DNA from: Metabacillus sp. B2-18
GTDB taxonomy: Bacteria > Bacillota > Bacilli > Bacillales > Bacillaceae
Reading direction: 5' to 3'
NCBI RefSeq assembly: GCF_021117275.1
Contig: NZ_CP088245.1
Span: 4,776,001-4,840,000 of the forward strand
Length of the DNA: 64,000 bases
Position 1 is the first letter of the stretch; each line of letters begins with the position of its first letter. The notes below the pieces were generated by a model that saw nothing but the letters and a program-made list of their open reading frames with translations, was not told the origin of the DNA and did not search any database. Below, piece after piece: positions 15,983 through 53,949 of this stretch. The translations under genes and the position numbers were made by a program.

Positions 15983-16836
15983 TCATTCTTCTTCCTTAAC
16001 TCTTGTAGCTCTAACCTGTCTTGCAATTCCACATTTAAATTCAATGGTTACATCGTAATTTCTGTAAATGATGCCCCGGTGAACCGTTTGCTTGAAAATG
16101 TCAGCCCTGAAAGGTTGGTTCTCGGCGCGTTCTTCCAATTCATCCAGATACATCAGTAATTTGCTAAGTTGCTTGGCTAAATGGCGGCTTTCCTGCTGTT
16201 TCTCGTTAAGCTCTTCAAGTTCTGCTTGAAGCATTTCTTGTTCATAATATAGATGCCTTATGGTTGCCTCATAAGCCCCACTTACTGAGGAGGTGCTATT
16301 ATCGGTTAGTTCAACCAAACGTTCATTTATGGTTTCCAGTTTCTCTTCTAGAATTCCAAGCCGCTCTTTTTCTTTAATATTTAGGTCGTACTCGGCTATG
16401 ACCTCATTTGCTTCTTCTATCACCTGACTTCTGTTCTCTTTCAGTTCATAAATCAAATCCATAAATTCTCTTTCCAATGCTTCTTCCCAAACATGTCGTC
16501 CAGAACATTTAATATTGTATTTTTTGGGGTGAATCTTCGCTCTGCATTGCCATGCTGTGTATAGATATTTTTCCCCATTTCTTTCCGAGGTAAGCCTCCG
16601 CCTTACAACCGGGCTTCCGCATTCCCCGCAGTAAAAGCTGTTGGAAAAATACGATGTGTTCGAATACACTTGTGCATATTTGCCATCTGGATCCCTCAGC
16701 ATCTTGCTTCTTCGTTTCATCTCCTGCTGGGCTGCATTCCAATCTTCGTCTGAAATGATAGCTGGGTGATGGTCCTTAATAAAATACTGTCGTTCCGAGC
16801 CATCATTACGGATTCTCTTATGGGTAAGAAACGCCG
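15983..16836 (-). pseudogene. Large serine recombinase, C-terminal half (copy A')
   Basis: Same content as the fragment at 1189-2039: the end of the recombinase domain (FLTHKRIRNDG...DHHPAII), a zinc ribbon (CGECG with distal cysteines), and a coiled-coil. It has no catalytic domain and is cut at the identical residue. Upstream it shares with copy A a leader containing GCGTATTTTTATCCA that is not recombinase-derived. An apparent start further upstream (to 16966) only runs through the terminator of the toxin-antitoxin pair, so I do not accept it. It lies 117 bp upstream of the fused recombinase, which mirrors the A-to-N-terminal-fragment order at 1189/1067. Confidence 0.85.
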
Positions 16837-35040: not shown

Positions 35041-35080
35041 GCTGTTATTCTCCTCTCCTGTTTATGTCGCTTTTTGTCTA

Positions 35081-35176
35081 ATCGCGGATAAATCTTCAGA
35101 ATCGCAGATAAAATGCGAATAATCGCGGATAAATCTCGAAAATCGCAGATAAAATCCCGATAATCGCGGATAAACC
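35081..35176. repeat. Tandem repeat TCGCGGATAAA
   Basis: Five tandem units of about 20-21 nt with the core TCGC(G/A)GATAAA. The same core recurs in an array at 53860-53949. Confidence 0.8.
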
Positions 35177-35209
35177 TCTTGATAGAATTGAAAATCCTGC
35201 TAGATTGCT

Positions 35210-35420
35210 GATATATGCACTAATTTAGAACAAGTCCAGGCTAATTTGCCGATATACCTCCTAATTTAGTAGCTAATCCCTGCTATATGGTCGATACACC
35301 TCTTAATTTAGTATCTAATCCCTGCTATTTTACCGATATATCCCCTAATTTAGTGCAAATCCCTGTTGAACCTCCGATACGCCTCTAATTTAGTAGCAAA
35401 TCCCTGTTAAATCGTACGAA
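35210..35420. repeat. Tandem repeat CTAATTTAGTAGC, about 41-nt period
   Basis: At least five units of about 41 nt with CTAATTTAG and AATCCCTG cores. Sequence differs from all other arrays in the window. Confidence 0.75.
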
Positions 35421-39222: not shown

Positions 39223-39427
39223 CTGTACACCCACCTTAGTCACATAGTTGTTACCGTACAAATGAATTCTTTTCGACAGAATTCCCTATCATTTATTATA
39301 AAGGACATTGGCAGTTTTCTCATTACATTTTTTCATAAATTACCTGTTATATTTTAGGGGAAAATAATGATAGGAACCCACTCCTATATTTTTTTACCGG
39401 ACAAGCCCTTATACTTAAGAAAAATCT

Positions 39428-39515
39428 GAAAAAGGCAAACTTGTTGAAAAACAAGGACGCAAAGCTATGGGCCTACCCAATGTTCAACATTGCAAGGCTG
39501 CCAAGCTGCCAGGCT
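39428..39515 (+). ncRNA. Cyclic di-GMP-I (GEMM) riboswitch
   Basis: The sequence has the hallmark features: a GGCAAAC start, a CUUGUU-GAAA-AACAAG hairpin with the GNRA loop, the GGACGCAAAGC junction, the GGGCCUACC arm, and a closing GGCUGCCAAGCUGCC segment. It lies 40 nt before the secreted-protein gene at 39554. The expression platform is not resolved, but the segment GGCTCC-TTTTT-GAGCC just after the aptamer could act as a switch. Confidence 0.85.
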
Positions 39516-39553
39516 CCTTTTTGAGCCATGGGGCTATTGAAAAGGAGAGGCTA

Positions 39554-40447
39554 ATGATGAAAATAAAGGTTGTAGTTCTGACATTACTATTCTTACTAGG
39601 ATCTCAACTAGGAGGTCTAGCTTTGAATCATAAAGCACAAGCTGAGGGTCTGTCGCCGGGCTATTCAACATGGCTCTGGGATACGAGTAAAATTGTAAAT
39701 GACCGCGAAGTTACATTACAGTTTTTAGAAGCAAAGCAAGTATCACACGTGTTTTTGCAGATTGACCGTAGTATTGATGTTACCTATTATCACACTTTTA
39801 TTAGCGAAGCTGCGAAGCTAGGTATGGATGTTTACGCGTTAGATGGTGCACCTAACTGGGGTGCTAACAATAAAGCATTTTTGAACTTTTTAAATTGGGT
39901 AAGTGGTTATCAAAATGGGGCAGCTACTGGTCAGAAGTTCGCCGGAATTCACCTTGATATTGAGCCTTATTTAACAGAGCAATGGACAACAAACTATGGG
40001 GCTGCTGTTCTTAAATACCAAGGAGCGATTTTAGCTGCCGCTAATACTGCATCTGGTTTAGGCATCAGTCTTGCAGTTGACATTCCGTTTTGGTTTGATG
40101 AAATGAACTTCCGTAACAAACACGGAAAAGGCAATCTAGCCGAATGGGCGTTAAAAAATACAGACGAAGTGACCATTATGGCCTACCGTGACAAAGCCGT
40201 TGGCCCAAATGGCATTATTGAATTAGTGAAATATGAGATGGATCTCGCTGTGTTGCTTAATAAAGATGTAACGATCGCAGTTGAGACGATGAATCTCGGT
40301 ATTAGTGACGGATTTTTAACGTTTTTCGAAGAAGGTCAGGCGGAAATGAATAATCAGCTGGGGCTTGTTTTAGAGCAATATCAGGGTTATTCCAGTTTTG
40401 GTGGGTTTGCTGTGCATCATGTTGGTAGTTGGATGGAGTTGAAGTAG
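39554..40447 (+). CDS. Secreted TIM-barrel-like protein under c-di-GMP riboswitch
   Basis: A 297-residue exported protein. Signal peptide about residues 1-27 with cleavage near AQA-EG. The mature part has repeated strand-helix units with the motifs YSTWLWDTS, HVFLQIDRSID, AGIHLDIEPYL and TIMAYRDKAVG, resembling a TIM-barrel glycoside hydrolase; HLDIEPYL holds the likely acid residues. ATG 39554 has AAAGGAGAGG upstream; the longer frame starting at 39467 would run through the riboswitch. Control by c-di-GMP suggests a role in matrix or wall turnover linked to the motile-sessile switch (inference). Confidence 0.75.
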   Translation: MMKIKVVVLTLLFLLGSQLGGLALNHKAQAEGLSPGYSTWLWDTSKIVNDREVTLQFLEAKQVSHVFLQIDRSIDVTYYHTFISEAAKLGMDVYALDGAPNWGANNKAFLNFLNWVSGYQNGAATGQKFAGIHLDIEPYLTEQWTTNYGAAVLKYQGAILAAANTASGLGISLAVDIPFWFDEMNFRNKHGKGNLAEWALKNTDEVTIMAYRDKAVGPNGIIELVKYEMDLAVLLNKDVTIAVETMNLGISDGFLTFFEEGQAEMNNQLGLVLEQYQGYSSFGGFAVHHVGSWMELK

Positions 40448-40572: not shown

Positions 40573-41070
40573 TTGCTCATATTTTGCTCTTGGTTTCGTC
40601 TTCGTGGCGCGATGATGACCATCTTCCTCTTGTTTTGCTCTTGGATTGGTCTTCATGGCCACGATGATGACCATCTTTCTCTTGTTTTACTCTTAGATTG
40701 GTCTTCATGGCCACGATGATACCATCTTCTTCTTGTTTTACTCTTGGATTGGTCTTCATGGCCACGATGATGACCATCTTCCTCTTGTTTTACTCTTGGA
40801 TTTGTCTTCATGGACGCGATGATGACCATCTTCCTCTTTTCTTACTCTTGGTTTGGTCTTCATGACCGCGATGATGACCATCTTCCTCTTGTTTTACTCT
40901 TGGTTTGGTCTTCATGGACGCGATGATGACCATCTTCCTCTTGTCTTACTCTTGGTTTGGTCTTCATGACCAAAATGATGACCATCTTCCTCTAATTCCA
41001 CTCCCTAATTGGTCTTCATAACTTGGATGAAAACCATCTTCTTCTTTTTTAGCTCTTGGATTGGTCTTCA
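40573..41070. repeat. 52-nt array with alternating inverted arms, family 1
   Basis: About nine units of 52 nt (starts at 40611, 40663, 40715, 40766, 40818, 40870, 40922, 40974, 41026). Each has ATGATGACCA, a 25-nt CT-rich spacer, the inverse TGGTCTTCAT and a 7-nt separator. No long genuine protein frame is expected. Confidence 0.9.
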
Positions 41071-41076
41071 TAACTA

Positions 41077-41255
41077 ATGAACGACATTTCTCTCTTCCTC
41101 AGATCTTTTTTGTCGTTCTCTCCACGATGAACGACACTACTCTCTTCACCGCTCCTGTTTTGTCGTTCATACCCCGATGAACGACACTACTCTCTTCCAC
41201 CGCTCCTGTTTTGTCGTTCATAATCCCGATGAACGACACTACACTCTCCCCTGCT
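41077..41255. repeat. 50-52-nt array with alternating inverted arms, family 2
   Basis: Units start at 41077, 41127, 41177 and 41229: ATGAACGACA, a 23-nt CT-rich spacer, TGTCGTTCAT and a 6-8-nt separator. Same arms recur at 50124-50222. Confidence 0.9.
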
Positions 41256-41349
41256 CCTAACCAATCATCATCCCAATATAAATATTTCTACCTAACCTAC
41301 CCCAGCAAAAAAGCCTCATAAAACTAACAATATAAACAAGACAAAAAAA

Positions 41350-41369
41350 GAGCCTGTACACACAGGCTC
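41350..41369 (-). terminator. Terminator of mbl
   Basis: GAGCCTG/CAGGCTC stem with a T-run on the minus strand, ahead of the stop at 41380. Confidence 0.8.
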
Positions 41370-41379
41370 AAAAGCTTAC

Positions 41380-42381
41380 TTATCCGAATTTTTTGCGTGG
41401 AAGTTTGTCCATGTTGTCAAGCATAATTCCTGTTCCGATTGCTACACAATCCATTGGTGATTCCGCAACTAGTACAGGGACTTTTAGTTCTTCTGCTAGT
41501 AGCTGATCAAGGCCGTTTAGAAGGGCTCCGCCACCTGTTAAGATCACGCCGCGGTCGATAATGTCGGCTGATAGTTCTGGAGGAGTGCGTTCTAATACAC
41601 TCTTAGCAGCTTGTACAATCGCAGCAACTGGTTCACGAAGTGCTGATTCTACTTCGGTTGAATTTACTGTAATTGTGCGAGGTAATCCTGTCACCATATC
41701 ACGTCCACGAATATTAATTTCTTCATAACGTGCGCCTGGGAATACCGTTGCAACATTGATTTTAATATCTTCAGCTGTACGTTCACCGATTAGAAGCTTG
41801 TACTCTCTTTTAATATATTGCAGGATTTCATTATCAAACTTGTCCCCTGCCATTTTAATAGAAGAGGCGGTGACAATATCGCCCATTGATAACACAGCGA
41901 CATCAGTTGTACCACCGCCTATATCTACTACCATGTTTCCATAAGGTTGGAAGATGTCCATACCGGCACCAATGGCCGCTACTTTTGGTTCTTCCTCTAG
42001 GAATACATTTTTTCCACCGCTTTTTTCAGCAGCTTCTTTAATGGCTTTTTGCTCAACAGATGTAATATTCGTTGGGCAGCAAATTAACATGCGTGGTTTT
42101 GAAAATAATCCTTTTACATTTAACTTATTGATAAAATGCTTTAACATTGCTTCTGTTACTTCAAAGTCTGCGATGACGCCATCTTTTAATGGGCGAATGG
42201 CAACAATATTCCCAGGAGTACGTCCTACCATACGTCTTGCTTCTTCACCAACGGCAAGAACCTTTCCGGAATTCTTGTCTAACGCAACAACGGAAGGTTC
42301 ATTTAGAACAATTCCTTTACCCTTAACATGAATCAGTACATTTGCCGTACCAAGATCTATACCAATATCCCTCGCGAACAT
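41380..42381 (-). CDS. mbl: MreB-like actin, Mbl
   Basis: A 333-residue bacterial actin with phosphate-1 loop DIGIDLGTANVLI, connect-1 and the second phosphate loop DIGGGTTDVAVLS, and a C-terminal membrane-contact tail. It lines cell-wall elongation complexes. Its place beside spoIIID and near flhO-flhP identifies it as Mbl rather than MreB. Confidence 0.93.
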   Translation of the reverse strand: MFARDIGIDLGTANVLIHVKGKGIVLNEPSVVALDKNSGKVLAVGEEARRMVGRTPGNIVAIRPLKDGVIADFEVTEAMLKHFINKLNVKGLFSKPRMLICCPTNITSVEQKAIKEAAEKSGGKNVFLEEEPKVAAIGAGMDIFQPYGNMVVDIGGGTTDVAVLSMGDIVTASSIKMAGDKFDNEILQYIKREYKLLIGERTAEDIKINVATVFPGARYEEINIRGRDMVTGLPRTITVNSTEVESALREPVAAIVQAAKSVLERTPPELSADIIDRGVILTGGGALLNGLDQLLAEELKVPVLVAESPMDCVAIGTGIMLDNMDKLPRKKFG

Positions 42382-42537
42382 TCTATCTATATCCTCCTTG
42401 CAAATCTCATTCCCGTGATTAGTTTAACCTAATTAAATATTGTATCATAAAATCGCAAAAATAGTATGATTTTGTAAAATAATTTCAAGTATTTATGTAG
42501 GAATATGTCGATTATGAAAGATGTAGATAGAATGTGC

Positions 42538-42813
42538 TTATTTCACTGGTTCTTCTTCTAAAATCTCGTCCTTCTTGTACTTAAGCTTTGTTGCTTCTCC
42601 ACCACGCAAATGTCTAATTGATTTATGGTAATCTAGTATCTCCTTTACCTCATTCGCAAGATCAGGGTTAATTTCAGGTAACCTTTCTGTTAAATCCTTA
42701 TGGACGGTACTTTTGGAAACTCCAAACTCCTTCGCAATAACGCGAACTGTTTTCTTTGTCTCCACGATATACTTCCCAATCTTGATTGTGCGTTCTTTGA
42801 TGTAATCGTGCAC
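42538..42813 (-). CDS. spoIIID: Sporulation transcription factor SpoIIID
   Basis: A 91-residue DNA-binding protein with the helix-turn-helix RVIAKEFGVSKSTVHKDLTERL. Sequence is nearly identical in style to B. subtilis SpoIIID. It starts with GTG after GGGAGGT. It switches on late mother-cell genes with sigma-E and sigma-K. Confidence 0.95.
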   Translation of the reverse strand: MHDYIKERTIKIGKYIVETKKTVRVIAKEFGVSKSTVHKDLTERLPEINPDLANEVKEILDYHKSIRHLRGGEATKLKYKKDEILEEEPVK

Positions 42814-43465
42814 ACCACTCTACCTCCCTAATATGGATGTGAGAAGTGTGAAATGAGACTCGCATACAAAAGTCACTTTGGCTGAATTTCTCTTAGATGA
42901 TCGTATGATGTCTCTATTACAGCGATTATAAATTACACTCACGATCCCTCACCTCAAACACTCTCTTTGAATAGGTTTGTAAACATTTTATTAGCTTGGA
43001 TTAAGATATATGCAAGAAAACTCAAGTGGGACAAGGGATTCTTTGAATTTTTTTCAAAAACACCCGTTTAGGACAGGAAATCTGAGGGTTTGGAGGTTGT
43101 TTTTTTGAATCTGATTTTTTTCCGGGGTGAAAGGAAATAGTAGCTGGGTGAATTATTTCCCGAGAAATTTGTCGATGTTTGAGAGCGATCGCGAGGTATA
43201 AGAAAAACACACTCTAATAGTGTATTAGGGAGGTTGAGAAATTATTTCTATTTTTGAAGATTTTTTTGATTTTCTGGATGTAAAATTGGGAGTACGTGGC
43301 GGTGGGTTTTTAATGCCTTTTAGGGGCCCTGTTACATTATTGTTTATGTGACTACCCTCTATATCCTATATATCACTCCACCACTCCTCTAAAGCTCTTG
43401 AGTGATGCCTAGCAGCATCAAATTCGATCAACAAGTTATGCATATGTGAAACATTGTGAAACAAG
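42814..43465. other. Intergenic region between spoIIID and symporter operon
   Basis: About 650 bp without a gene I can support. An open minus frame at 43022-43210 has no ribosome site and poor codon use. The spoIIID promoter must lie near 42830-42950. Dispersed repeats begin at about 43466. Confidence 0.5.
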
Positions 43466-43573
43466 AAATTTCGGGGAGTGACAGGCACCAAAAAACCCGA
43501 ACCAACTTCTGATTCGGGCGTGTGAAACATTATGTGAAACAAGAAAACTCGGGAAGTGACAGGCACCACCAAA
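43466..43573. repeat. Two dispersed-repeat copies flanking a terminator
   Basis: Copies with the TGACAGGCACCA core (about 43466-43491 and 43548-43573). Each is preceded by GTGAAACAAGAAA. They lie on either side of the hairpin at 43496. Confidence 0.7.
43496..43518 (-). terminator. Terminator of symporter operon
   Basis: CCCGAA/TTCGGG stem, TTTTTT on the minus strand, downstream of the stop at 43594. Confidence 0.75.
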
Positions 43574-43593
43574 ACTCCGCGGACCGGCCCCCT

Positions 43594-45270
43594 CTAGTCC
43601 ATCCAGACCTCCCCATCTTTGTAAGTCATCTGCTCAGGGTAGCGCAGGTTGAGTACTTCTTCTTGTGTTTTGATGGATGGTGCTTTTGTTGAGAGTGATA
43701 CGATTACGTTTGTTAGGATGGCTGCTGTGGCGCCGAAGATTCCTGCGCCGGTGTCGATGATGCCTGCGATGGTGAAGCCGCCGTATTTGCTGGCGAAGAT
43801 GTAGATAAGTGTGACGGCAAGACCGACGAGCATTCCAGAGATGACTCCTGGTGTGTTAGAGCGTTTCCACCATACTCCGATTAAGAGAGCTGGGAAGAAG
43901 GTTCCTGATGCGAGAGCGAAGGCCCAGGCAACGATTTGCGTGATAGCTCCTGGTGGGTTTAAGGCGATAAGACCCGCGAATAAAGTTGCAATAACAATGG
44001 ACCAACGTGCTACTGATAGACGGTTCTTTTCTGATGCGTTTGGCTTCATAACTCGATAGTAAATGTCGTGTGCAAATGAAGATGAGATCGCAATCATTAG
44101 TCCACCTGCAGTTGAAAGGGCAGCAGCCATTGCACCAGCTGCAACTAAGCCGATAACGAACATCCCTAGGTTCGCAATTTCAGGTGTTGCCATAACGACG
44201 ATATCATTTGAAATGATTAGTTCACTCCATTGAAGAACTCCATCTCAATTGCCGTCTGCAAGCTGGAGCTTTCCAGTGTTGACCCATGATGTTGTCCATG
44301 CTGGTAATTCAGATAGCTTTTGTCCTGCTACTTGTGTCATTAAAATGAAGCGAGAAAATGCTGCGTATGCCGGAGCAGATAAATATAAAAGTCCGATAAA
44401 CAAAATCGCCCATGCTCCTGACCATCTTGCTGCTTTCATCGTTGAAACGGTATAGAAACGAACGATTACGTGTGGAAGACCAGCTGTTCCTGCCATTAAT
44501 GTGAACATAAGGGCTAAGAACTGCCATTTCGTTCCGTTTGTAAATGGTGCGAAATATTCAGAGATTCCTAGCTGACGATCAAGCTCACCCATTTCCTCTA
44601 CAATTTTTCCGTAGGATAACCATGGTGCTGGGTTTCCAGTGATTTGCAGTGACATGAAAATAACCGGGATTAAGTAAGCAATAATCAAGATGATATACTG
44701 TGCAACCTGTGTCCATGTGATTCCTTTCATCCCACCAAATGCAGCATAAAAGGCAATAAGCACAACCCCAATCATCGTTCCTAGCTTTGCATCAATTTCA
44801 AACAGCCGCCCGATAACAACCCCTGAACCTGAAAGCTGACCGATTGAGTATGTGAAGCTGATGATGATCGTACAAATCGCGGCAATCACACGTGCAGTGT
44901 GGGAATTGTAACGGTCACCGATGAACTCTGGTACTGTGTAACGACCGTATTTTCTTAATTGAGGTGCTAGTAAGAATGTAAGAAGTAAATATCCTCCTGT
45001 CCATCCCATAATATATGCAAGTCCATCATACCCAAGGAGCATGATTGTTCCGGCCATCCCGATGAAGGATGCTACACTCATCCAGTCGGCACCGATGGCC
45101 ATTCCGTTAAAAATCGGTGGAACCCCGCGCCCTGCTACATAGAAATCAGATGTTTGCTTTGCTGTGTTGTAAACAGCAATTCCGATATACAAAGCAAATG
45201 TTAATAGAATAATTGTGAGAGATACTAAAAATTGAGCGTCCAACCTCTTTCCCCCTTTGTGAATGAGCAT
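43594..45270 (-). pseudogene. Sodium:solute (acetate-type) symporter with in-frame stop
   Basis: The frame is continuous except for one TGA at 44245-44247. Both halves match an SSS-family symporter of the ActP/YwcA type: N-terminal VAGRGVPPIFNGMAIGADWMSVASFIGMAG, transmembrane helices through residue about 310, and the C-terminal MATPEIANLGMFVIGLVAAGAMAAALSTAGG region. The stop falls inside an EF-hand-like insertion (D-G-N-stop-D-G-V-L-Q-W-S-E), replacing position 4 of the loop. A single base change from GGA or CGA would explain it. Without read-through the protein loses the last six helices, so it is probably dead unless the stop is a sequencing error. The start may instead be TTG 45243. Confidence 0.85.
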
Positions 45271-45332
45271 TCCCCTTGCTGCTCATTTCTCAGTGCATAA
45301 TTTATATGATCCCCTTTTATATATGTTTGTGT

Positions 45333-45635
45333 TTAATGATCTAACGTCTTACCAGCACTAAGCTGTTCATTTTTACTTTCATCAATTCCATATTTTCGAT
45401 CGATTGAGTCACTAACTTTTGCGTTAATAAACAATAAAAGAATAAAGACGACAACTGCCCCTTGTGCACCCATAAAATAGTGAAACGGGAAGCCGTTAAT
45501 GGAAAAACCGCTAAAGAACTCAGCAAATAGCACAACACCAAACGATGAAAGTGCTCCGATAATTAAATAAATCACAATATTTCTTGTGCGCTCCTTGAAA
45601 TAAGCATCAGCTACTTTTTTATCAATCTTTTTCAT
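45333..45635 (-). CDS. Small symporter subunit, DUF4212-like
   Basis: A 100-residue protein with two membrane helices (IVIYLIIGALSSFGVVLFAEFF and GAQGAVVVFILLLFINA) and the GFPFHYFMGAQGAVVVF block typical of DUF4212 partners of SSS transporters. It lies directly upstream of the symporter in the same operon. It presumably supports transporter assembly or activity. Confidence 0.85.
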   Translation of the reverse strand: MKKIDKKVADAYFKERTRNIVIYLIIGALSSFGVVLFAEFFSGFSINGFPFHYFMGAQGAVVVFILLLFINAKVSDSIDRKYGIDESKNEQLSAGKTLDH

Positions 45636-45649
45636 GCAGCCACCTCCGA

Positions 45650-45832
45650 TTAAGATAAGCTAAAAATAAATTTGATTGTATCTATAAACGATGCAGGTAC
45701 CAATGCAATTTGAACAATGAAGTAGAGTAGTAGTGTTAAGACCGGGATGAGTAAAAACTGAGGTTTCCGTTTACGTAAACATAAGACCAAGCTGAATCCT
45801 GTTAGAGCAAGAATAAATAATAAAGTGAACAC
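45650..45832 (-). CDS. 60-residue membrane protein
   Basis: A two-helix protein with a KRKPQF loop. The start is GTG 45832, 9 nt after GGAGGG; a TTG at 45841 is in frame but too near that site. First gene of the symporter operon, function unknown. Confidence 0.6.
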   Translation of the reverse strand: MFTLLFILALTGFSLVLCLRKRKPQFLLIPVLTLLLYFIVQIALVPASFIDTIKFIFSLS

Positions 45833-45851
45833 TATAAGCAACCCTCCTATT

Positions 45852-45865
45852 TGTAAGCGTTATCA
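45852..45865 (-). promoter_or_regulatory. CcpA cre site
   Basis: TGTAAGCGTTATCA matches the catabolite-responsive element and sits right at the 5' end of the symporter operon. It predicts repression when preferred sugars are available, as for other acetate-use transporters. Confidence 0.6.
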
Positions 45866-46018
45866 TTCAACATTTATTATTATGAATGTTTTCATACTAA
45901 CCGGTCAATATAAAATCAGAAATTTGAGATATCTTTCTCTCGACATATTTCGTAATCTTTCGAATCATTAAACTGGGGTCCCCTTCAAATTACCTATAAA
46001 ATTTGTTACCTTTAAAAT

Positions 46019-46438
46019 ATGAAAAAAATAATGATTTATCTTTGTTTTGTAATGTATATAGGAATATTATTTTATCTGTTGTTTTTTTCCGCTTATCGGA
46101 AGTCTGTTGGTGGCCTGATTTCCTATAACCTCATTCCACTTCAAACAATTGGGCAGTATTTTTATTCTTTTGACGGACTAGGTTTGACAGATCAGTTTCT
46201 AGGAAACCTCTTAGCTTTTGCTCCGTTTGGCTTTTTGTTGCCTTTTATTCTAATAGTTACGTTCACCAGGGTTTTGGGGTATTCTTTTTTACTTTCTTTA
46301 TCAGTGGAGATTGCTCAGTTTATTTTTCGGGTCGGGGCGTTTGATGTGGATGATCTTATCTTAAATGTTGCAGGTGGCGGATTTGGTTTTTTAGGCTATC
46401 TAATCATTAGAAGAGCTTGGCTTGTCGCCAAGTCCTAA
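46019..46438 (+). CDS. VanZ-family membrane protein
   Basis: A 139-residue membrane protein with the VanZ pattern: NLIPLQTIGQYF, FLGNLLAFAPFGFLLPF, LSVEIAQFIFRVGAFDVDDLILNVAGGGFGFLGYL. VanZ-type proteins are linked to glycopeptide resistance and cell-envelope metabolism. I see no strong ribosome site before the ATG. It lies head-to-tail with the symporter operon and faces spoIIQ. Confidence 0.85.
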   Translation: MKKIMIYLCFVMYIGILFYLLFFSAYRKSVGGLISYNLIPLQTIGQYFYSFDGLGLTDQFLGNLLAFAPFGFLLPFILIVTFTRVLGYSFLLSLSVEIAQFIFRVGAFDVDDLILNVAGGGFGFLGYLIIRRAWLVAKS

Positions 46439-46498
46439 TGGCGCTTTTCTTATACTATCATCCAAAAAATTTTATACTTCCTGATAGGATAAAAAAAT

Positions 46499-46534
46499 CG
46501 AGGTTGATCTCTAGTTAGTTTGAGTTCAACCCCG
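46499..46534 (-). terminator. Terminator of spoIIQ
   Basis: GGTTGA/TCAACC stem with an outer GG/CC, T-run on the minus strand, 16 bases past the stop. Confidence 0.7.
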
Positions 46535-46549
46535 TATAGACGGCTATCC

Positions 46550-47488
46550 TTATGAATTTACTGTGCTATTTGAAGCTTCAGGTTGAGTTGATTCCTCGCT
46601 ACCTTCAGTTTCTCCTTTTTCAGCGTCTTTTTTATCTGATTCTGGAGCTTTTTCTTCTGCAGACTTTTCATCGTCTTTTGCTGGTGCTTCTTCACCTTCA
46701 CCTGCTGGAGCTTCTTCGCTTACTTCTTCTTCAGTTGTTGGAGCTTCTTCACTCACTTCTTCTTCTGTTGCAGGTTCTTCAGTTGCTTCTTCTTCAACAG
46801 CTTCTACAGACGTTACCGGCTTGTCCATATAAGTTAGAGGGTTAACAGCTTTTCCAGCTTTACGAACCTCGAAGTGTACGTGGTTGCCATCTTCTTCATT
46901 GTAAAGATTTGTACCAGACTTACCAAGTAGTTCGTTTTGCTCAACTTTGTCACCAGCTTGAACACTTACTTCTGCTAATGATTGATAAACTGTTACCACA
47001 TCATTTTCATGCTCAATTTCTACTACATAACCTAGAATTGGATCTTTTTCAGCTTTTGTTACTGTACCACTTAGTGATGCAACAACATCAAATTGCTTCT
47101 GATCTTCTCTTGCTAGGTCAATTCCTTTGTTCATTCTATACGTATTGTTATAGAATACAAGTGCTGCTTCTTGATCTTCTGTTGAAGCATTTTCATCATA
47201 AAACTTTTTCACAACTGTTACAGCATCTGGATCAATAGCTGGCATTGCAAAGTTTTCTTTCGTTGCGTTAACTTCAACTGCCTCAGGCTGATTGTCTGTT
47301 AATGCAAGGTCTTCTGTATTGTTACCATTTAAATCTTCTGCTACATCATTGCTGATGCTTTGATACCATAATACTGCCGTAAGGATAACTGCTGCACTCA
47401 TTAGGTAAATTGCCGGAAATACCCAACGTTTTCTGAAAAATTGTTGAACTTTGTTTTGAGAAGTACGTTTCTTTTCTTCCTCTCTCAT
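46550..47488 (-). CDS. spoIIQ: Forespore protein SpoIIQ with degenerate LytM domain
   Basis: A 312-residue type II membrane protein. Residues about 22-44 are the transmembrane helix; the LytM fold spans roughly 105-220. The first zinc ligand is missing: YRMNKGIDLA has Asn where active LytM enzymes have His, while the HVHFEV motif is kept. This matches B. subtilis SpoIIQ, which joins SpoIIIAH across the intermembrane space. After residue 225 there is an unusually long acidic tail of repeated EE-x-S-E-E-A-P units, so it is longer than the 283-residue B. subtilis protein. Confidence 0.92.
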   Translation of the reverse strand: MREEEKKRTSQNKVQQFFRKRWVFPAIYLMSAAVILTAVLWYQSISNDVAEDLNGNNTEDLALTDNQPEAVEVNATKENFAMPAIDPDAVTVVKKFYDENASTEDQEAALVFYNNTYRMNKGIDLAREDQKQFDVVASLSGTVTKAEKDPILGYVVEIEHENDVVTVYQSLAEVSVQAGDKVEQNELLGKSGTNLYNEEDGNHVHFEVRKAGKAVNPLTYMDKPVTSVEAVEEEATEEPATEEEVSEEAPTTEEEVSEEAPAGEGEEAPAKDDEKSAEEKAPESDKKDAEKGETEGSEESTQPEASNSTVNS

Positions 47489-47635
47489 TCTATCATCACC
47501 TCAGAAATCAGTTTGAACAGATTTTCTGAATTATATACACACCTTCAAAAAAATTTTTTTAAACTTTAGTATGTGTCTTGTTTATAATTATATGTATGGA
47601 ATGTGAAAGTTTTTTAACTAAAGGAGTTTATGTAT

Positions 47636-48004
47636 ATGAAGAAAGTCATCTTCACCCTATTACCTCTACTATATATGGCGCTGATCTGGACGCTCTCAAG
47701 CTTCCCAGCGGATGCGATTGTGAACACACCATTTTCGTTTGATTCACTTTTAAAAGAATCGTTGCATCTTATAGAATTTGCGATTCTCTATTGGTTGATT
47801 GCCTTTGCATTCATGGCTCATGGACGTTGGACAGAGCGTACGAGCTGGATTGCAGCCGCTATCGCTATTTTATATGGACTAACAGATGAGATTCATCAGT
47901 CGTTTGTTCCAGCAAGGTCAGCTACGGTGATTGATTTTGTGAAGGATACAATTGGAGTGCTAGTTTCCTATTATATTGCGAAGAGAAAGTTTTTTAAAAA
48001 GTAA
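47636..48004 (+). CDS. VanZ-family membrane protein, YwnJ-like
   Basis: A 122-residue VanZ homologue: KESLHLIEFAILYWLIAFAF, YGLTDEIHQSFVPARSATVIDFVKDTIG. ATG 47636 lies 9 nt after AAAGGAG and is preferred over the ATG at 47630. B. subtilis has the VanZ-family gene ywnJ in this spoIIQ region. Membrane-bound; no function shown. Confidence 0.82.
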   Translation: MKKVIFTLLPLLYMALIWTLSSFPADAIVNTPFSFDSLLKESLHLIEFAILYWLIAFAFMAHGRWTERTSWIAAAIAILYGLTDEIHQSFVPARSATVIDFVKDTIGVLVSYYIAKRKFFKK

Positions 48005-48027
48005 AAAGGAGCAGAATCTGCTCCTTT
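48005..48027. terminator. Bidirectional terminator
   Basis: AAAGGAGCAG/CTGCTCCTTT stem between the 3' ends of the VanZ gene and spoIID. Confidence 0.85.
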
Positions 48028-49051
48028 ACTGTTTTGCTGTATATTTATTTAAGAATGGCTCGGCTTCCGATACCTTTGTTCCATTATAATAATAAGCAAC
48101 GATGTCTTGATACGTTTTGCCTGATTCAGCCATGAAGTTCGCTCCGTATTGACTCATCCCAACACCGTGACCATAGCCTTTAGTCTCAATTACAACGGAG
48201 TCACCTTTAATTTCCCACGTAAAGTCTGCTGATTTTAATTCAAGCTTATCTCTTACATCTGTACCAGTAAATTCTTTCCCATCTATTTCAACTTTAGCTA
48301 CGCGTTTCCCAGGCGTTAGCTCGGTTACTTTTCCAATTGTTCCGCTTGATGTATCAAGATTTACCCCTAATAGCTTTTCAAACTGAGAGATCGCAATAAT
48401 TTTTTTCTCATAAAACTTCGGTGATTTTTCATCCCATGTGCTTTCTACGCTTTTTAAATAAGGAATCGGCTCTTGCCATACAGCTTCCGAGTTTTCTGTA
48501 TATCCATTACTAGTAGAGAAAAAGCTTGCATCAATCGGCTGATTATCATATGTAAGTATTTGACCTTGAGTTGCTGCTACAGCCTCTGTAATTTTCTCCA
48601 TTTTTTGTGTGTAATCATCTCCCCAAGCTGCTTTTAGCTCTTGAGGGGTTTTATAAACCTGGTGCATGATCGTATCTGTTACAACAGCATTCCCCTCTGG
48701 AACACCCAATGTTTTGCCACTCATCAATTGCTTCGTAATATATGTTCTTGCGGCAAGTGCTTGTGCTTTTAACGCCTCTGTTTCAAATTCAGCTGGCATC
48801 TCAGAAGCCACAACACCTATCACATACTCCTCTAACGGAATGTTTTCCACGACCTTTGCTTGACTTCTATATACAGGCACATCCAACGGTGATTCACCTA
48901 AAACGGGCACTTCGCTTTTGCTGACCGTTATTTCCTCACCTAATTTGCCTTTTGATTGCTCCATAAACGGTGTAACGAGAAGAGTTGGAATCAGAAGAAT
49001 AATAAAAAATAACCCTCCAAGTGCAAAGAGAACTGGTTTAACTGGTTTCAT
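48026..49051 (-). CDS. spoIID: Stage II sporulation protein D
   Basis: A 341-residue lytic transglycosylase of the engulfment machine. Membrane helix about residues 9-27; then the SpoIID domain (PLEEYVIGVVASEMPAEFETEALKAQALAARTYI, with the catalytic Glu) and a C-terminal YGHGVGMSQYGANFMAE block. ATG 49051 follows GGAGGTAAAC. Adjacent to murA and spoIIQ as in B. subtilis. Confidence 0.95.
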   Translation of the reverse strand: MKPVKPVLFALGGLFFIILLIPTLLVTPFMEQSKGKLGEEITVSKSEVPVLGESPLDVPVYRSQAKVVENIPLEEYVIGVVASEMPAEFETEALKAQALAARTYITKQLMSGKTLGVPEGNAVVTDTIMHQVYKTPQELKAAWGDDYTQKMEKITEAVAATQGQILTYDNQPIDASFFSTSNGYTENSEAVWQEPIPYLKSVESTWDEKSPKFYEKKIIAISQFEKLLGVNLDTSSGTIGKVTELTPGKRVAKVEIDGKEFTGTDVRDKLELKSADFTWEIKGDSVVIETKGYGHGVGMSQYGANFMAESGKTYQDIVAYYYNGTKVSEAEPFLNKYTAKQ

Positions 49052-49304
49052 GTTTACCTCCAATGATTAGGTTGAGTAGAATGTCTATAGTTCATCTTAT
49101 GGTCATGGACAAGCAATTATGACTGGAAAAAGTGGGGACAACTAATATTTTGTAGGGGTGGACGAGGGTTGGGGATTTCGAGTTTTAGATGGTTATTTAG
49201 ATATGTTTATTGAAGATGTTATTAGGTTTGCTGTGATTGTAGGTTCGCGAGAGGTGTGGGTGGGTATTGGGGCAGAAGTTTTTTTCAATGCTGGTTTTGT
49301 CTTG

Positions 49305-50050
49305 ATTCTCACGGTATCGGGACAGAATCTTTTCTTCAATATCGGGTTTTGTCCCGATTCTCGCGGTATCGAGACAGAACCTTTCTTAATATACTGGGTT
49401 TTGTCTCGATTCTCGCAGTATCGAGACAGAACCTTTCTTTCTTTACCGGTTTTTGTCCCGATTCTCGGGGTATCGGGACAGAATCTTTCCTTCAATATCG
49501 GTTTTTGTCCCGATTCTCGCAGTATCGAGACAGAACCTTTCTTTCTTTACCGGGTTTTGTCCCGATTCTCGTGGTATCGGGACAGAATCTTTCCTTCAAT
49601 ATCGGTTTTTGTCCCGATTCTCGTAGTATCGAGACAGAACCTTTCTTTCTTTACCGGGTTGTGTCCCGATTCTCGGGGTATCAGGACACAACCTTTCTTA
49701 ATATACTGGGTTTTGTCCCGATTCTCGCAGTATCGAGACAGAACCTTTCTTTCTTTACCGGGTTTTGTCCCGATTCTCGCGGTATCGAGACAGAACCTTT
49801 CTTTCTTTACTGGGTTTTGTCCCGATTCTCGCAGTATCGAGACAGAACCTTTCTTTCTTTACCGGGTTTTGTCCCGATTCTCGCGGTATCGAGACAGAAC
49901 CTTTCTTAATATACTGGGTTTTGTCTCGATTCTCGCAGTATCGAGACAGAACCTTTCTTTCTTTACCGAGTTTTGTCCCAATTCTCGCAGTATCGAGACA
50001 GAACATTCTTTCTATGCTGGTTTTTGTCTCGATTCTCGCGTATCGGGCAC
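49305..50050. repeat. 52-nt array with alternating inverted arms, family 3
   Basis: Fourteen regular units of exactly 52 nt (starts at 49316, 49368, 49420 ... 49992). Each has ATCGAGACAG-type arm, a CT-rich spacer, the inverse GTCCCGAT/TGTCTCGAT and a 9-nt separator. Frames stay open for several hundred codons only because the unit lacks stops; I do not annotate protein. Confidence 0.92.
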
Positions 50051-50121
50051 CCATTTGCCTCATACATCAATTCTTCTTCTAATTATCAACGGAAGGAACC
50101 GGAGTAAGAGCTGCTTCAACC

Positions 50122-50222
50122 TTATGTACGACATTTCTCTTTCAACTGACCTCTCTTTTGTCGTTCATCACCCTTATGAACGACACTCTCCCCCCTACTG
50201 ACCTCTGTTTTGTCGTTCAAAC
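50122..50222. repeat. 52-nt array, family 2, second locus
   Basis: Two units with ATG(A/T)ACGACA arms at 50124 and 50176, their TTGTCGTTCA inverses and CT-rich spacers. Same sequence family as 41077-41255. Confidence 0.88.
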
Positions 50223-50381: not shown

Positions 50382-50420
50382 AAAAGGAGCAGGGCGCCAT
50401 TGCTGACTCCTGCTCCTTTT
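50382..50420 (-). terminator. Terminator of murA
   Basis: AAAAGGAGCAGG / CCTGCTCCTTTT stem, immediately after the stop. Confidence 0.85.
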
Positions 50421-53819: not shown

Positions 53820-53859
53820 TTTGATTGCGGGTAGGACCTGGGATCGTTGAGACTGTGTA

Positions 53860-53949
53860 TCGCGGATATACTCCCGAGAATCGCGGATAAAACCCGAGAA
53901 TCGCGGATAAAACCCGAGAATCGCGGATAAAACCCGAGAATCGCGGATA
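53860..53949. repeat. Tandem TCGCGGATA array
   Basis: Five units; the last four are of 20 nt with AATCGCGGATAAA and CCCGAG. Same family as at 35081-35176. Confidence 0.85.

Follow-up and report, generated by a model that had tools for sequence, protein, structure and literature searches.

The window considered here is a 64,000-nt stretch of the Metabacillus sp. B2-18 chromosome (positions 4776001-4840000 of 5,138,672 bp; the first open reading frame (ORF) was read as DnaA by eye). It carries two blocks of tandem repeats with inverted arms, a class A array that runs into a class B array and a class C array followed by a short class B array, and these blocks lie past terminator-like hairpins of an mbl-like and a murA-like gene (Table 1). 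The families are local members of the published class of 52-nt Bacillus satellites (Subirana and Messeguer, 2021; PMC8161180). The repeat class itself is already known; what is new is the layout that its members share here and their direction relative to replication.

The repeat unit and its edges

All window arrays were recovered by Tandem Repeats Finder (TRF; Table 1), and 20 dinucleotide-shuffled versions of the window gave six TRF rows in total, with a top score of 70 and none with a period of 45-60. In classes A, B, and C alike, inverted arms of 9-10 bp flank a 25-bp spacer that is pyrimidine-rich on the + strand, and a linker of 7-9 bp (7 in classes A and B, 9 in class C) separates the arms on its other side. 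Class A arms are TGGTCTTCAT/ATGAAGACCA, the right arm being mostly ATGAAGACCA elsewhere in the genome and mostly ATGATGACCA, with one central mismatch, in the window array. Class B arms are TGTCGTTCAT/ATGAACGACA and class C arms TGTCYCGAT/ATCGRGACA. The first-pass annotation had described three families with unrelated arms and one geometry. TRF, the shuffles, and a reading of the sequence bear out the geometry, and the arm sequences do differ; they are not unrelated, since classes A and B match at 7 of 10 positions, and an outer TGTC and inner AT are common to classes B and C. At the A-to-B junction a mixed element joins an A left arm to a B right arm across a 5-bp gap. Array C is crossed on either strand by open frames, the longest of 347 aa (49158-50201); as several of them overlap and a 52-nt period is not divisible by 3, we take them to be probably spurious. 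ORFs located mainly within arrays were excluded from the survey of array flanks.

Table 1. Repeat arrays, terminator-like hairpins, and transposase genes discussed in the text (window positions, except where kb on the chromosome are given)
Feature	Position	Strand	TRF row	Description	Basis
Class A array	40573..41075	+	40582-41071, period 52, score 663	~9.5 units of 52 bp; arms TGGTCTTCAT/ATGATGACCA; pyrimidine strand is +	TRF, sequence, consensus table
Class B array	41077..41258	+	41077-41258, period 50, score 236	arms TGTCGTTCAT/ATGAACGACA; spacings 50, 50, 52	TRF, sequence
Class C array	49293..50045	+	49293-50045, period 52, score 1051	~14.5 units of 52 bp; spacer 25 bp, pyrimidine-rich; linker 9 bp	TRF, sequence
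Short class B array	50116..50219	+	50116-50219, period 52, score 136	two arm-25-arm' units; right half-site first, left half-site last	TRF, sequence
Terminator-like hairpin, mbl-like gene	41343..41369	-		between stop codon and A/B array; scan site -13.5 kcal/mol	position by eye
Terminator-like hairpin, murA-like gene	50382..50420	-		between stop codon and C/B arrays; scan site -24.3 kcal/mol	position by eye
12 IS256-type genes at class C arrays	chromosome, kb: 630.8, 700.0, 898.7, 900.6, 4172.6, 4216.1, 4218.1, 4252.4, 4300.8, 4351.4, 4845.4, 4846.9				

Beyond the window, the genome was sampled in 60 regularly spaced stretches (with the window, 1.25 Mb; with targeted stretches, 1.50 Mb); the spaced stretches are denser in the origin-proximal half, and the targeted ones were picked via whole-genome BLAST. 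A search of all stretches that allowed up to three mismatches found 449 elements, 431 in arrays and 8 isolated, many stretches having been picked because they bear arrays. Distances between neighbors (up to 330 bp, 1.5 Mb) are exactly 52 in 355 of 384 cases and 51 in 13 of 384. From the period of 50-52 first proposed, 52 emerges as dominant over the stretches read, and 50 as a local exception, seen in the class B array (41077..41258) of the window. Two or more elements occur in 57 segments (~44 loci once segments split by an insertion sequence (IS) are rejoined), 49 of which have at least four and 8 of which have two or three. The origin-proximal half holds 50 of the 57, with some bias from the denser sampling there, although the targeted stretches derive from BLAST of the whole genome. 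BLAST matches of the window arrays fall on the chromosome only, with none on the 330-kb second contig; since only 40 of 62 candidates were scored in one list and 40 of 66 in the other, these lists may not be exhaustive.

A sequence-blind autocorrelation of the spaced stretches and the window detected 31 arrays, 16 of them with 52 or one of its multiples as best lag. Lags in the remaining 15 are 36 (2), 168 (4), 103 (2), 153-155 (4), 21, 41, and 131. Varied periods, which the first-pass annotation had named as evidence against a common geometry, thus occur in about half of the arrays found in this way.

Best-arm gaps in the array consensus units of this genome are 7 or 9 in 45 of 53, one of the eight non-fitting units being a 154-nt array that slipped in. 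At the 5′ edges of the 57 segments a right half-site stands at the expected position in 24 and a left half-site in 1; at the 3′ edges a left half-site does so in 22 and a right half-site in 2. The remaining edges have neither, and some are cut by an IS. Array boundaries therefore tend to fall within the short linker, and these half-site ends define the unit as arm, 25-bp spacer, inverted arm. Pairs that mix A and B half-sites span the linker in five cases and the spacer in one. Class A arrays end 3′ (on the pyrimidine strand) in one or a few class B units at 208.8, 3480.8, 4316.3, 4816.6, and 4939.1 kb, and the order is reversed at 4523.9 kb; five of the eight mainly-B segments have only two elements. 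In other genomes, a free best-arm search gave a gap of 25 or an outer width of 27 in 31 of 36 arrays.

Orientation, conservation, and insertion sites

On the chromosome, sampled stretches up to 2.3 Mb have positive GC skew with a single exception, and past 2.43 Mb the skew is negative. In 56 of the 57 segments the purine-rich strand is the leading-sense strand, the pyrimidine strand being correspondingly oriented to replication. The lone exception (2362522-2363540) lies at the terminus between the last positive and the first negative skew samples, where the replication arm is uncertain. A gene-context table that takes in 56 segments shows the rule kept, in segments without IS neighbors (n = 32), for 15 of 16 leading pairs, 11 of 11 convergent, 3 of 3 lagging, and 2 of 2 divergent contexts; with IS-neighbored segments included, it is kept in 17 of 17 convergent, 5 of 5 lagging, and 5 of 5 divergent contexts. 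Array orientation therefore tracks replication, not gene direction. Mutational skew was rejected as the source of this polarity: mean leading-sense purine is 0.647 in arrays and only 0.516-0.530 in array-free intergenic regions, 56-77% of which exceed one half.

A similar polarity was found elsewhere. In 9-20-kb stretches of eight other genomes, picked because they bear elements, 33 of 36 arrays are oriented as the local GC skew predicts (array-less stretches L177, L178, L230-L233, and L236 were dropped, as was L191, whose sole detected stretch was taken as an N run). In G005 and G118, two genomes of one other family, agreement is 12 of 12. The exceptions are one array each in G301, G048, and G277, the skew at the G277 site being 0.000. 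The earlier prediction that the arrays all face one way relative to the origin is upheld by these counts at home and for most arrays in other genomes, with a coarser test of other genera considered below.

Across the order, 31 of 299 genomes and 20 of 114 genera have the A/B arm pattern, counting this genome (a reversed control gave 0 matches), and 3 of 299 genomes have the class C pattern. Within the genus, A/B elements are present in 9 of 21 genomes, again counting this one, and their number per genome ranges from 0 to 172. Between spoIID and murA, two close relatives (SpoIID 97-98% identical) retain the class C arms and the 52-bp step. In one representative unit from each, the arms are identical to those of the window at 8-9 of 9 positions and the spacers at 21 of 25 and 14 of 25, still with a length of 25 and with 18-21 pyrimidines of 25. 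At this orthologous site, arms and lengths are kept and the spacer sequence has turned over. A 52-nt array is found there in only 3 of the 21 genus genomes, and at least two have a 21-nt array instead (the sister species G299, L207, and G318, L213); G310 has a weak 21-nt array, G315 a 42/114 pattern, and other genomes nothing clear. At the mbl site, class A then B half-sites are retained in G305 and G301, and a short 20-nt repeat was read by eye in G311 (L240).

Insertions of an IS256-type element provide a natural probe of the unit. At the threshold used, the Mutator/IS256-type transposase (PF00872) has 13 copies, ten with 99-100% identity and three with 67%. Of the 13, 12 lie at class C arrays (Table 1) and one (2547658) outside arrays. 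In all 10 scorable copies the center of the target duplication falls at offset 11-14 of the 25-bp spacer; scorable means that the duplication was readable (nine of 8-9 bp, and one of 5 bp beside another copy), and two copies were left unscored. A DNA-binding enzyme can thus tell the spacer dyad apart. Neither of two IS21-like insertions examined by eye lies at the spacer dyad. Insertion at the symmetry axes of repetitive extragenic palindromic (REP) sequences is on record, and IS256-family elements are among the IS that target them (Tobes and Pareja, 2006; passages of PMC1525189), so that the targeting seen here is a new case of known behavior.

Other features were noted nearby. A c-di-GMP-I-GGC riboswitch (RF03167, 73 bits; window 39425-39514) overlaps the first start of the ORF at 39467-40447, which had no Pfam match at 0.001 and whose true start is probably further downstream. 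A 41-nt repeat in two copies (window 43455-43573) contains GTGACAGGCACC, which we take to give it a REP-like look; Y1_Tnp domains exist in the genome. Among arrays of other periods, those of 103 nt (chromosome 16204-16682 and 3253056-3254081) are made of ~21-nt direct sub-repeats of the TCACGTCATTTT type, with + strand purine of 0.51 and 0.31, respectively. Dispersed 153-155-nt arrays lie at 349580, 2301821, 4338582, and 4673087, most with inverted arms around AAAGCATACGCA / TGCGTATGCTTT. Arrays of 20-21, 41, and 42/84 nt (ATCGCGGATAAA.. and TTAGTAGCA..TGCTAA) occur in the window at 35079-35178, 35220-35413, and 53859-53949; TCGCGG is the signal printed for the 21-nt repeats of B. weihaiensis (PMC8161180).

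Proposed phased sites in duplex DNA and the competing explanations

With a fixed geometry, ends that fall at half-units, arms and lengths that are kept while spacers turn over, and a consistent orientation to replication, the arrays are best read as phased binding sites in duplex DNA for a putative binder, a reading that we put first tentatively and at somewhat less than even confidence. The unit would be an interrupted palindrome in duplex DNA, joined by linkers that place equivalent dyads 52 bp apart, roughly five helical turns, and on the same face. The arms may serve as half-sites for a dimer-binding protein, or for a set of related proteins of slightly different specificities, that could assemble along the array. 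Such arrays would act in cis on the chromosome and not as RNA, in a role that might exploit the direction of fork or translocase movement. The facts added here favor a constraint on duplex geometry and either a role or an origin linked to the direction of replication. Homogenization could produce regular spacing within one array, yet not the same 52 across separate arrays.

Whether duplex or RNA is the constrained form was addressed through arm mismatches, on the premise that pairing-constrained arms should show mismatches skewed to the G-U type on one strand. With class C position 5 excluded, mismatches across the linker comprise 54 of GA-strand wobble type, 49 of CT-strand wobble type, and 144 others. 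RNA structure as the selected feature was rejected, there being no wobble-type excess apart from that position. The first-pass annotation had placed function in structure; this finds support for duplex geometry, with its 25-bp spacer and five-turn step, and none for RNA or single-strand pairing. A shared amplification mechanism, the other proposal of that annotation, may also apply. A role as 3′ untranslated regions was examined through the terminators that precede arrays. A terminator-like site lies before the array at 24 of 54 gene ends facing arrays (16 of 37 on the leading strand), compared with 46 of 120 among control genes and none of 60 among shuffled sequences; the other 30 of 54 have no such site, and some of the intervals are too short for one. 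Terminators therefore precede arrays at about the usual detected rate, and the 3′ untranslated role was set aside.

Several observations weigh against phased binding in duplex DNA. No array-binding protein was found, and arm sequences differ between species, unlike the expectation for a universal binder. At class C position 5, the mismatches favor GA-strand wobble (138 vs. 43), and RNA-seq reads of B. coagulans cover 52-nt repeats (PMC8161180; passages of PMC8625621). Because presence within the genus is patchy (9 of 21 genomes), the function cannot be essential. Some arrays have constant arm mismatches (the window A array and one G048 array). Among published consensus repeats of 52-nt families, the best-arm gap is exactly 25 in only 4 of 23 (11-25-11 with linker 5 twice in thermoamylovorans and once in coagulans; 10-25-10 with linker 7 in litoralis), so that the fixed spacer is not established for the whole 52-nt class; another 3 of 23 have 11-23-11 and a linker of 7, and different best arms, several of them weak, were obtained for the remaining 16. 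Finally, in an earlier and coarser test on 8-kb loci of other genera, GC skew agreed with array orientation in 29 of 45 arrays and disagreed in 16, while gene direction agreed in 23 and not in 22 (loci judged spurious, L101, L110, L118, and L141, and arrays below 120 bp had been left out beforehand). Given the weakness of that test, the polarity rule may be unequal among genera.

Second in rank, and somewhat unlikely, is that the arrays are selfish satellites without host function, produced by template switching or slippage at palindromes on the lagging-strand template, with the replication machinery setting both the 52-bp step and the orientation. The consistent orientation to replication (in this genome and in the 36-array test) agrees with such an origin, as do the patchiness among sister species, the homogenized units with different spacers at an orthologous site, and the scarcity of 52-nt arrays between spoIID and murA, where at least two genomes have a 21-nt array instead. 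Copying alone does not predict that arms are retained across genera and spacers are not, and no replication ruler that yields 52 in differing sequences is known to us.

A role in transcription control, in which the pyrimidine strand would supply weak terminators or Rho-loading sites to halt transcription running head-on to replication, appears quite unlikely. In its favor, the 27-bp hairpin is followed by at least five T in 8 nt for 64 of 441 elements on the pyrimidine strand and for 1 of 441 on the other, and non-IS arrays are enriched in convergent-gene intervals (11/32 vs. 71/515 array-free regions; Fisher P 0.004) and depleted in divergent ones (2/32 vs. 117/515; P 0.03). On the other hand, the T-run accompanies only ~15% of elements, arm mismatches carry no general wobble bias, termination requires neither an exact 52-bp step nor half-unit ends, and in B. 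coagulans RNA-seq reads through several repeats (passages of PMC8625621). Very improbable is an origin as mobile palindromes akin to REP doublets forming hairpins (REPINs) or bacterial interspersed mosaic elements (BIMEs), dispersed by a Y1 transposase (REP-associated tyrosine transposase, RAYT) and then amplified in tandem: clustered intergenic palindromes that also serve as IS targets recall REP, and this genome has five Y1_Tnp matches, but 17 of the 21 genus genomes have Y1_Tnp (PF01797), some with arrays and some lacking them, leaving no co-occurrence at family level. In addition, REPINs occur for the most part singly (passages of PMC3116915), and 431 of the 449 elements found here, in stretches often picked for their arrays, stand in arrays.

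Phased binding could also be extended to a chromosome-wide system, which we consider unlikely: five-turn-spaced dyads, with a pyrimidine and a purine strand giving the direction of replication, would be read by a fork-following or nucleoid-organizing machine that needs phase, symmetry, and polarity and tolerates many arm sequences. If so, the 21-nt and 52-nt satellite classes would be alternative forms of one system, as the 21-nt arrays at the same site in two sister species might indicate.

Relation to known repeat systems

A regular array of 27-bp partly palindromic repeats and ~25-bp spacers resembles clustered regularly interspaced short palindromic repeats (CRISPR). The difference is that spacers within one array here are near copies rather than unique, half-repeat ends are frequent, and dozens of arrays occur per genome; identity with CRISPR was rejected on the first of these. 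The polar word read by SpoIIIE, the SpoIIIE recognition sequence (SRS), is GAGAAGGG, and 22,314 characters of array sequence contained 0 copies of it on either strand.

Likeness to REP, BIME, and REPIN elements lies in the intergenic palindromes, their clustering, and IS insertion at the symmetry axis (passages of PMC1525189), and the tandem REP arrays of P. fluorescens SBW25, which face one way on one side of the genome and the other way on the opposite side, recall the polarity described above (passages of PMC3116915). According to the same passages, the tandem REP arrays of SBW25 repeat with period 184 and REPIN clusters adjoin RAYT genes; the elements described here form arrays with a single 52-bp period. 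The 20-21-nt Bacillus repeats (PMC8161180) are alike in their constant length, near two helical turns, and replace 52-nt arrays at spoIID-murA as noted above; they differ in period and motif.

The closest relation is to the 52-nt satellites themselves, repeats of constant length and variable sequence reported from ~30% of the Bacillus species studied, for which a polymerizing protein or a small RNA was suggested (PMC8161180). A constant repeat length of 51-53 with differing sequences in one genome, a criterion of that class, is found here, as are several families per genome and a motif that often occurs with its reverse in one repeat. Members of the class are also non-coding, a point on which the open frames through array C are noted above, and have four repeats or more per array, as do 49 of the 57 segments. 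Two B. litoralis families (PMC8161180, Table 1) have class B arms (42_52_9; best arms 10-25-10 with linker 7) and class C arms (77_52_5; 8-27-8 with linker 9). PMC8161180 makes no statement on replication orientation, nor do the passages of PMC6749651 and PMC8625621. Compared with the text of PMC8161180, replication polarity, the fixed 25-bp spacer, half-unit ends, and IS targeting are described only here. The 52-nt satellites had been called enigmatic; the spacer, the half-unit ends, the polarity, and the landing sites of the transposase turn them into testable statements about which dyad is recognized, whether a half-turn change would abolish recognition, and whether orientation to the fork matters.

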